Below are positions 26,597 to 27,153 of a DNA stretch of 64,000 bases, piece by piece. The stretch covers positions 1-64,000 of the forward strand of contig NZ_JANSUY010000011.1 of the NCBI RefSeq assembly GCF_024741135.1, read 5' to 3'. Origin of the DNA: Aquiflexum gelatinilyticum. Lineage in GTDB: Bacteria > Bacteroidota > Bacteroidia > Cytophagales > Cyclobacteriaceae. Below the pieces are notes generated by a model, which made no database searches, was not told the origin of the DNA, and was given only the letters and a program-made list of their open reading frames with translations. Every line of letters starts with the position of its first letter. Position 1 is the stretch's first letter. A program made the position numbers and the translations under genes.

Positions 26597-26671
26597 GGGA
26601 GTTTAGCTCAGCTGGTTCAGAGCATCTGCCTTACAAGCAGAGGGTCGGGGGTTCGAATCCCTCAACTCCCA
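26597..26671 (+). tRNA. tRNA-Val (anticodon TAC), copy 1
   Basis: Complete cloverleaf: acceptor GGGAGTT/AACTCCC, D arm GCTC/GAGC, anticodon stem TCTGC/GCAGA around loop CTTACAA, T arm GGGGGTTCGAATCCC (shared last pairs) and discriminator A. Reads GUN valine codons. CCA is not encoded. Identical to copy 2, 33 bases downstream. Confidence 0.96.
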
Positions 26672-26704
26672 CAACATTATTAAAAGAGTAAAACAAATTT
26701 TCTT

Positions 26705-26779
26705 GGGAGTTTAGCTCAGCTGGTTCAGAGCATCTGCCTTACAAGCAGAGGGTCGGGGGTTCGAATCCCTCAACTCCCA
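26705..26779 (+). tRNA. tRNA-Val (anticodon TAC), copy 2
   Basis: Base-for-base identical to copy 1 over 75 bases; probably on the same transcript, which ends at the terminator 26783-26804. Its 3' part (from 26749) begins the 61-bp direct repeat that recurs at 27093-27153. Confidence 0.96.
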
Positions 26780-26809
26780 CATAGCCTCAAAAGAGGCTTT
26801 TTTTATGCC
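26749..26809 (+). repeat. 61-bp direct repeat, copy 1 (tRNA 3' part, terminator, start codon)
   Basis: Identical without a mismatch to 27093-27153 (offset 344). It contains the T arm and 3' acceptor strand of tRNA-Val copy 2, the following terminator, and the ATGCC that opens the GIY-YIG gene. Confidence 0.95.
26783..26804 (+). terminator. terminator after tRNA-Val pair
   Basis: AGCCTC-AAAA-GAGGCT followed by seven T, directly before the ATG of the GIY-YIG gene at 26805. Confidence 0.88.
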
Positions 26810-27053
26810 TTGTAGTTTTTATATCCTCTACTCAAAAAACCTTGACAAATATTACGTCGGACATACTTGCGAAGTAATGGATGAAAGATTGCGAAAACAC
26901 AACTCCAATCATAAAGGATTTACGGGCAAATCTCCGGATTGGATCTTGGTATACAAGGAAGAGTTTGAGGATAAAAAATCAGCTTATGCCAGAGAACGAC
27001 AGATAAAATCGATGAAGAGCAGAAAAAAAATCATCGAATTGATCAATCAATAA
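26805..27053 (+). CDS. GIY-YIG nuclease domain protein (URI type)
   Basis: The 82-residue protein is a single GIY-YIG domain of the UvrC-intron-endonuclease type: [17 protein letters not shown] (5-21, the two tyrosine strands), an arginine in DERLRKHN (about 27-34), and a glutamate in [15 protein letters not shown] (about 61-75), which would be the metal ligand. Length is normal for this compact family. Function is unknown; relatives cut DNA in repair, restriction or homing. Its ATG abuts the T-run of the tRNA-Val terminator, so transcription must read through that hairpin or start close by. The whole gene lies between copies of a 61-bp repeat. Confidence 0.88.
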
Positions 27054-27054
27054 T

Positions 27055-27123
27055 AGTTCTGCCGGTTCAGAGCATTCCGATTTATAATCGGAAGGGTCGG
27101 GGGTTCGAATCCCTCAACTCCCA
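27055..27123 (+). pseudogene. tRNA remnant with altered anticodon arm
   Basis: The 3' half matches tRNA-Val exactly from 27093, but the acceptor 5' strand has decayed (AATAGTT against GGGAGTT) and the D-stem 5' strand GCTC is lost. The anticodon arm is replaced by a longer hairpin, TTCCGA-TTTATAA-TCGGAA, with formal anticodon TAT. A functional tRNA is unlikely because no D arm can form. Confidence 0.85.
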
Positions 27124-27153
27124 CATAGCCTCAAAAGAGGCTTTTTTTATGCC
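27093..27153 (+). repeat. 61-bp direct repeat, copy 2
   Basis: Exact copy of 26749-26809, ending in ATGCC, but here the reading frame after ATG is different and no nuclease gene follows. Confidence 0.95.
27127..27148 (+). terminator. terminator after tRNA remnant (repeat copy)
   Basis: Same AGCCTC-AAAA-GAGGCT-T7 hairpin as at 26783-26804, carried by the direct repeat. Confidence 0.85.

Follow-up and report, generated by a model that had tools for sequence, protein, structure and literature searches.

Downstream of a tRNA-Val gene of Aquiflexum gelatinilyticum lies a unit of about 350 bases, built around a GIY-YIG nuclease gene, that looks like a very small selfish element living on tRNA genes without breaking them. 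It is found in the window, that is, the whole 64,000-nucleotide stretch that was analysed, which forms the first 64,000 positions of contig NZ_JANSUY010000011.1 in a 5.0-Mb genome (G000 below). In order, such a unit comprises an intact tRNA gene, a terminator, the GIY-YIG gene with no room for a promoter of its own, a degenerate copy of the same tRNA, the tRNA 3' end and a terminator; the degenerate copy begins at or near the stop codon, and a TCC..GGA hairpin replaces one or more of its arms. The family of these units spans the Bacteroidota and is not a single oddity, and we favour, at a probability of about 0.55, the reading that it is a minimal selfish unit that parasitises tRNA genes by homing. 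Its anatomy, its presence and absence among related genomes, the displaced terminator, the positions of its borders and the selection on its gene are direct observations.

At the window locus, two identical tRNA-Val(TAC) genes (78 nt identical), both intact, lie on the plus strand at 26597..26672 (ARAGORN; Rfam tRNA model, 74.2 bits) and 26705..26780 (ARAGORN, Rfam). The second is the host tRNA of the unit and the presumed source of its read-through transcription. An intrinsic-terminator-like hairpin (26783..26798, plus strand; folding energy −9.2 kcal/mol) occupies the gap before the GIY-YIG gene, an open reading frame (ORF) of 82 amino acids at 26805..27053 on the plus strand with a TAA stop at 27051-27053, and an identical second copy of this hairpin follows at 27127..27142 (plus strand). 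Self-comparison of the sequence revealed an exact 61-bp repeat, made of the 3' part of the tRNA, the terminator and ATGCC, with plus-strand copies at 26749..26809 and 27093..27153, 344 bp apart. Similarity extends to 79 bp at 91%, so the repeat reaches the first bases of the GIY-YIG ORF. The exact repeat is far beyond chance, because shuffled flanks in a comparable test share strings of at most 7-12 bp. The two tRNA genes, the nuclease gene and the repeat had all been described in an earlier sequence-only reading of this DNA, and each was recovered at these positions.

Between the stop codon and the second terminator lies the broken tRNA that the same reading had recognised, a degenerate tRNA-Val copy (27054..27124, plus strand; Rfam, ARAGORN) that lacks the 5' acceptor strand and has its anticodon arm replaced. 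The Rfam tRNA model aligns 27054-27115 to its positions 8-63 with 28.9 bits (gathering score, 29), and the match begins, at model position 8, with the base directly 3' of the stop codon. The perfect hairpin TTCCGATT-TAT-AATCGGAA (27075..27093), a member of the TCC..GGA class, sits in the anticodon-arm position and replaces that arm without a change in length. Folded as RNA, the degenerate tRNA-like region reaches −25.5 kcal/mol (z −2.84). ARAGORN labels 27052-27124 as tRNA-Ile(TAT), which is probably a false call and not a functional tRNA-Ile. Similar ARAGORN calls at other units (Ile-TAT, SeC, Cys and Phe, at L070, L135, L187 and others) also resemble degenerate tRNAs; the degenerate tRNAs explain such odd predictions and are a likely source of false annotation. 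The idea that the hairpin is a common repeat of the window was rejected, as TCCGAT..ATCGGA occurs only twice in the 64 kb, at 27076 (the unit hairpin) and 58874, and TCCCGAT..ATCGGGA does not occur there.

The nuclease gene starts with ATG, no in-frame ATG, GTG or TTG stands earlier after the preceding stop, and its product matches Pfam PF01541 with an E value of 5.1e-15. Across 37 aligned sequences, including the window protein, Y6, Y17, R28, H32 and E64 are invariant; we take these residues to have catalytic roles in the GIY-YIG domain. The dN/dS ratios of the window gene against two congeners are 0.06 and 0.07, with 0.15 between those two congeners; in the other eight pairs for this gene, dS is saturated in seven and 3.4 in one. 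The invariant Tyr, Tyr, Arg, His and Glu positions and the low dN/dS ratios together indicate that the nuclease has been kept functional, at least at the Val locus. The gene begins 24 bp past tRNA-Val, those bases are the terminator, and a scan for sigma-70-like promoters between tRNA and gene, which does not cover Bacteroidota promoters, found none; read-through of the tRNA transcript is therefore the likely source of the nuclease mRNA. Between the window repeats lies no second plausible ORF, hence no site-specific recombinase there. At a threshold of 1e-3, the protein matched no NCBIfam or PADLOC model and no PHROGs family. Two solved sequences matched at E values up to 0.1, the UPF0213 proteins BH0048 (PDB 1zg2, E 0.0033) and EF2693 (1ywl, E 0.024), which are likewise small stand-alone GIY-YIG domains of weak similarity. 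Among the best 80 of 97 loci found by protein, the best named relatives are from Cognataquiflexum species (an identical protein at L129; also L130 and L131) and Aquiflexum (L132).

The presence and absence of the unit could be followed in five congeners (G000 to G004), among which the layout occurs at tRNA-Val, a first and a second tRNA-Met, tRNA-Thr, tRNA-Asp and tRNA-Asn; G004 was left out at the Asn locus, and G001 and G002 at the Asp locus. The Thr locus of G004 is occupied and is 408 bp longer than that of G000, which has no unit, with a 25-bp direct repeat from tRNA nucleotide 56. Identity between the two spans the tRNA start to 6 bp beyond the tRNA end, where the terminators diverge, and the terminator of G000 is found in G004 3' of the degenerate tRNA. 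Equivalent differences separate occupied G003 from G001 at the second Met locus (424 bp, 20-bp repeat, tRNA nucleotide 57) and at the Asn locus (410 bp, 19-bp repeat, tRNA nucleotide 62). At all three loci, the compared alleles agree throughout the tRNA and for 1-6 bp beyond it before the terminators differ, and the native terminator sits 3' of the degenerate tRNA in the occupied allele. These loci support the proposal of the sequence-only reading that a mobile unit restores its tRNA. Its prediction of sites lacking the gene held at Thr (G000 and G003), the second Met (G001) and Asn (G000) but not at the Val locus from which it was made.

Other loci of these genomes carry further states of the unit. 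Two tandem units stand at the first tRNA-Met in each of G000, G002 and G003, and apparent scars without nuclease are found there in G001 and G004. At the Asn locus of G002, the degenerate tRNA carries three hairpins, and no nuclease gene follows it up to the contig end. At the second tRNA-Met of G000 (G000:C43:87866-90921, L125), the terminator of the unit is kept and then unrelated sequence follows, the flank being rearranged relative to the congeners. Several unit copies in the congeners carry in-frame stops, so decay occurs. At the window locus itself, the similarity that continues past ATGCC (27154..27171, plus strand; within the 79-bp match at 91%) may be what is left of the 5' end of a second GIY-YIG gene that has been deleted. 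The ATG of the second 61-bp copy may thus be left from a deleted second unit, a suggestion that is weak on its own. The Val locus has two full units in G002 and G003; in both, the last terminator also precedes an ATG and then unrelated sequence, which leaves the relic reading on weak similarity. The sequence-only reading had the nuclease borrow the tail of the tRNA terminator for its start. As a designed feature, such borrowing was rejected as a general rule, as the median distance between the tRNA end and the beginning of the domain match is 41 nt (n=150) and the second ATG is a possible relic. Nor does the repeated terminator with its ATG belong to the mechanism in general, the two terminators being unlike at Thr, at the second Met and at Asn.

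Beyond the genus, 46 of 60 family genomes match our profile A1, as do 92 of 148 in a sample of the phylum, not every match having been checked for an adjacent tRNA. Units commonly form tandem arrays with a period of mostly about 340-430 bp, and one array (G116) holds at least eight matches at a spacing of about 364 bp. The nearest upstream tRNAs carry 17 ARAGORN labels and 13 amino-acid identities, the labels Val-AAC and Pro-AGG possibly belonging to degenerate tRNAs; hosts of different identity had been set beforehand as a test of mobility. The element is indeed very small, as the sequence-only reading had it, and what looked like a single oddity belongs to a family that extends over the phylum. 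Among 80 loci found by protein alone, the best 80 of 97, 71 include at least 150 bp upstream, and in 53 of the 71 a tRNA (Val-TAC in 46) lies no more than 150 bp upstream of the GIY-YIG gene, compared with 6 of 104 other ORFs from these loci. In 52 of the 63 loci with both flanks, the gene is spanned by a repeat of 15 bp or longer; shuffles reach 7-12 bp. Interior array units count as misses, because they often have no intact tRNA immediately upstream. A larger set of 306 ORFs showed tRNA-like sequence for 219 of 236 ORFs at 55 bits or more with enough flank and for 22 of 41 below 55 bits, and several of its tRNA-less rows proved on inspection to be interior array units. This set and the 194-unit set below are non-random: L061-L080 and L238-L277 were hand-picked from hit lists, leaning to arrays, and L031-L060 and L209-L237 are best-scoring matches. 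Of the 122 loci that have an upstream tRNA as well as a repeat of 15 bp or longer, 95 have the repeat overlapping the 3' end of that tRNA. The edges of the repeat lie 31-33 nt from the tRNA 3' end in 36 of these 95 and 17-20 nt in 17, which fits the hairpin as a mark of the border between unit and host tRNA.

The hairpin itself recurs in a set of 194 units that are linked to a tRNA and have a repeat of 15 bp or longer, in which the stretch just past the stop codon was scanned (rows without tRNA sequence, with a repeat below 15 bp, below 45 bits or with short flanks were left out). A perfect hairpin of at least 6 bp follows the stop in 146 of the 194 units, against 9.5% in mononucleotide shuffles. 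The TCC..GGA outer stem is present in 117 of the units; among 89 regions downstream of other ORFs, 14 contain any perfect hairpin of this kind and 2 have the TCC..GGA stem. The 5' arms comprise 40 distinct strings of differing length. The arms are complementary by the design of the search; when G-U pairs were permitted, they made up 84 of 1181 pairs in units and 844 of 3258 in shuffles. Among 38 rows without a recognised tRNA, several of which are interior array units, 15 have a hairpin, 9 of the TCC..GGA class. In the loci that were read, an intact upstream tRNA is accompanied by a degenerate copy of the same tRNA. The hairpin stands there in place of the anticodon arm when the unit is at Val, Asp or Ala and of part of the T-arm when it is at Thr; some units carry hairpins in two or three arms of one degenerate tRNA. 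The stop codon is TAG in 93 of 194 units, and at one G002 locus (L006) it coincides exactly with tRNA positions 8-10 in both units; the window gene has TAA, just before tRNA position 8. By a strict test (11 of 14 bases), the copied 5' region of the tRNA contains the stop codon in 24 of 147 loci and in none with reversed sequence, and the notion that tRNA positions 8-10 generally lend the stop codon was dropped, this being a minority feature.

Nuclease lineages appear to keep mostly to one tRNA identity and sometimes to switch. On a tree of 139 proteins, all encoded downstream of a tRNA called by ARAGORN (rows lacking one, proteins under 70 amino acids or 35 bits, the labels SeC, Ile and Cys, and duplicates were left out), the 17 tRNA labels require 33 changes, compared with 63-72 in 500 shuffles. 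Clades with a single tRNA extend across families (a 19-row Val clade with support 83; Met clades of 5 and 10 rows with support 77 and 27), and switches are nested within the tree, for example from Val to Arg-TCT. Median protein identity is 34% for different tRNAs in the same genus (n=87) and 52% for the same tRNA in different families (n=880), the latter value being carried by Val.

For the homing reading, we infer the following steps of cutting, repair and read-through expression, homing by cut and repair being the way in which the unit would move. Rare read-through of the tRNA terminator would yield the nuclease, which would cut an unoccupied tRNA gene of its own type in the 3' half; the cut would fall in the T-loop for Thr and the second Met, whereas for Val and Arg it would lie directly 3' of the anticodon arm. 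An occupied copy could then offer two partners for pairing, its intact tRNA for the 5' half of the broken tRNA and its degenerate tRNA for the 3' half, and repair would copy in the terminator, the nuclease gene and the degenerate 5' part, leaving the tRNA restored and its native terminator displaced downstream. Recombination between the direct repeats might afterwards build tandem arrays or delete the unit. For the phage T6 enzyme SegB, the motif RAWTSGAAC, read by eye, fits the T-loop of tRNA-Val (GATTCGAAC, minus strand).

Several observations weigh against homing as set out here or limit what supports it. The Val locus is occupied in all five congeners, and presence and absence were seen at sister loci instead. 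Insertion and precise excision are indistinguishable from the occupied and unoccupied loci; the direction of change is unproven, because deletion through the direct repeats recreates an unoccupied site exactly. The Asn site of G001 used for comparison lacks the gene and keeps a hairpin remnant. Clustering of the proteins by tRNA is strong for Val, to which the sample leans, the window protein having been the query. In 27 of the 122 loci the longest repeat lies off the 3' end of the upstream tRNA. With Val-Val pairs removed, median identity for the same tRNA in different families is 0.383 (n=159), against 0.354 for different tRNAs (n=3409). No copies of the unit were found in phage, plasmid or viral-contig searches at the sensitivity used, which bears on the route between genomes. 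The intact tRNA of an occupied locus should stay cuttable, no basis for immunity having been found, and the hairpin has no role in the homing model.

That last point is taken up by an alternative that we regard as rather unlikely, in which the hairpin and not a tRNA arm would be the site of the nuclease. The unit would then resemble a repetitive extragenic palindromic (REP) element with its own single-strand-specific, Ssn-type GIY-YIG enzyme, acting on single-stranded DNA at a fork or during uptake, and the tRNA would merely be a safe, conserved landing place. The Neisseria GIY-YIG nuclease Ssn reportedly acts on dRS3-like repeats. The frequency of perfect and TCC..GGA hairpins (146 and 117 of 194 units), the variety of their arms and the occasional presence of several in one degenerate tRNA speak for this alternative, as does another GIY-YIG gene in the genus that is flanked by CGTC-type repeats. 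The dRS3 sequence ATTCCC(N8)GGGAAT has a similar outer stem (PMC3898611), and CGTC palindromes, dRS3 included, are described as apparently lacking a dedicated transposase (PMC3733652). However, cutting at the hairpin alone leaves the direct repeats of tRNA 3' ends unexplained, and CCCGAT..ATCGGG palindromes, of which the congeners hold 8-53 per genome for this stem variant only (compared with almost 700 dRS3; PMC3898611), have no tRNA at 10 of 14 loci read. Their numbers in G000 to G004 (8, 31, 17, 53, 38) track matches to the Y1 transposase domain (1, 8, 5, 10, 10) rather than GIY-YIG matches (4, 3, 9, 9, 7). Of the 34 Y1_Tnp matches in these genomes, six loci were read (L286-L291); five have other palindromes close by, some arrayed, none has TCCCGAT..ATCGGGA, and four have looser TCC..GGA strings. 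Y1 transposases may move the hairpins; the counts in five genomes agree with this.

We give little weight to the remaining explanations. A host-serving device, in which the nuclease aids amplification or repair of tRNA arrays or the degenerate tRNA, partnered by the nuclease, acts as decoy RNA against tRNA-cutting toxins, seems improbable. The gene is under purifying selection, the folding energy allows for a transcript that resembles a tRNA and has a stable anticodon-like hairpin, and the tRNA amplification that SegB drives in phage works against a defence that cuts tRNAs (PMC13096335). Yet the unit is patchy within the genus, some copies have in-frame stops, the arrays that were read multiply the nuclease and degenerate tRNA and not the intact tRNA, and PADLOC gave no match. 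Still less credible is a resident gene caught in a duplication of the tRNA array, with a second tRNA that decayed, concerted evolution and no mobility. Unequal crossing-over does yield exact repeats and near-identical tandem arrays, and tRNA-Val itself is duplicated in the window. We reject such simple duplication, the layout recurring at many tRNA identities, occupied and unoccupied loci coexisting in one genus with unlike flanking terminators at Thr, the second Met and Asn, and an upstream tRNA being far commoner at the GIY-YIG genes (53 of 71) than at other ORFs (6 of 104). The sequence-only reading had named, as what would overturn it, a gene always kept at the same place and at no other tRNA; multiple hosts and unit-free loci show otherwise. 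If the unit were carried by, or left over from, a classical integrase-type element at tRNA 3' ends, the direct repeats of the tRNA 3' end and the restored tRNA would be accounted for, both being hallmarks of such elements, but the length of the unit fits only one gene of 80-100 codons and dozens of genomes repeat the same minimal layout, and we consider this explanation barely plausible.

Among known systems, SegB of phage T6 is the best precedent and nearest tested analogue for the unit nuclease. This GIY-YIG enzyme makes its cuts inside tRNA genes, and its activity drives tandem segmental amplification by way of homologous recombination (PMC13096335). The cutting of tRNA genes by free-standing GIY-YIG homing endonucleases in phage is thus already known. 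Like the unit, the Seg enzymes of T-even phages are encoded by stand-alone GIY-YIG genes beside tRNA genes of many isotypes, but their setting is phage tRNA clusters whereas that of the unit is bacterial chromosomal tRNA genes, and the available parts of the SegB account mention no degenerate tRNA, restored terminator or TCC..GGA hairpin (PMC13096335). The unit protein has no detectable sequence relationship to the SegB family, with no match in PHROGs at 1e-3 or in a tblastn search of 50,697 phage records at 1e-5. Integrative elements use tRNA 3' ends as attachment sites, duplicate the 3' part of the tRNA at both ends and restore the tRNA. The unit shares the tRNA 3' end as a direct repeat and the restored tRNA but is about 0.35-0.4 kb, has no integrase and contains the GIY-YIG gene only. 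The Ssn proteins of Neisseria are site-specific single-strand GIY-YIG nucleases; they share with the unit protein a small stand-alone GIY-YIG domain, and their cognate repeats resemble the outer stem of the hairpin, whereas the tRNA association is the unit's own. Free-standing GIY-YIG homing endonucleases also have the conserved catalytic domain and occupied and unoccupied alleles, as seen here at Thr, the second Met and Asn. The systems of REP-associated tyrosine transposases (RAYT/REP) and of CGTC (dRS3-type) repeats likewise combine a small nuclease or transposase-like gene with short conserved hairpins, dRS3 having a similar outer stem (PMC3733652, PMC3898611). In contrast to RAYT/REP, the unit has a GIY-YIG and not a Y1 enzyme, its hairpin lies in a degenerate tRNA, and its repeats carry tRNA sequence. 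The phylogenomics of the GIY-YIG domain has been treated elsewhere (PMC1564403).

New here are the TCC..GGA hairpin carried in a degenerate tRNA and the protein lineages that track tRNA identity with switches. Among the matches listed from open-licence PMC text, as far as these sources were available, we found no description of a restored tRNA with a displaced terminator, a degenerate tRNA and a conserved hairpin, and no paper on tRNA-linked GIY-YIG units in Bacteroidota. The common small GIY-YIG genes of Bacteroidota become a testable mobile-element family, in which the unit would target essential genes and rebuild them, and stays with one tRNA identity over long spans. A more tentative extension is that the units form a phylum-wide class of mobile elements of about 350-420 bp, which would be some of the smallest with an enzyme gene of their own, with a GIY-YIG nuclease that borrows the tRNA promoter and a conserved hairpin in the degenerate tRNA as recognition or processing site. 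Should this hairpin and the dRS3/CGTC palindromes be signals of one kind, the enzymes still missing for a whole class of bacterial palindromic repeats would be small GIY-YIG nucleases. The hairpin offers a direct test substrate for the 82-amino-acid enzyme and bears on what moves CGTC/dRS3-type palindromes, a question described as open in one study (PMC3733652).

Four GIY-YIG loci of the congeners lie away from tRNAs (L016, L027/L030, L028 and L029). CGTC-type palindromic repeats flank the non-tRNA genes at G002:C12:114365-116086 (L027, L030) and near position 128400 of G003:C7; these repeats (CCGTCATTCTGA) are arrayed in G002 and number 12-41 copies per genome on both strands, against 0-3 in a reversed control. 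A non-tRNA GIY-YIG gene in this position is a candidate enzyme for the CGTC repeats. Nuclease-free tandem arrays stand upstream of the second tRNA-Met and tRNA-Asn, at G003:C4:62942-63206 and near 76400-76700 of G002:C25 (L281), with periods of 83 and about 79 bp; their repeated element is the 5' part of a tRNA whose anticodon arm carries a TCCCG hairpin. A further repeat, interspersed in the genus and up to about 136-150 bp long, matches the minus strand of L026 (query positions about 505-655) and occurs in many places in G001 to G004 and in fewer in G000, among the matches listed, mostly at 70-90% similarity. Several GIY-YIG units lie at contig ends (G000:C56:1-300, G004:C69, L244, L258, L269 and L271), as expected if unit arrays break short-read assemblies.

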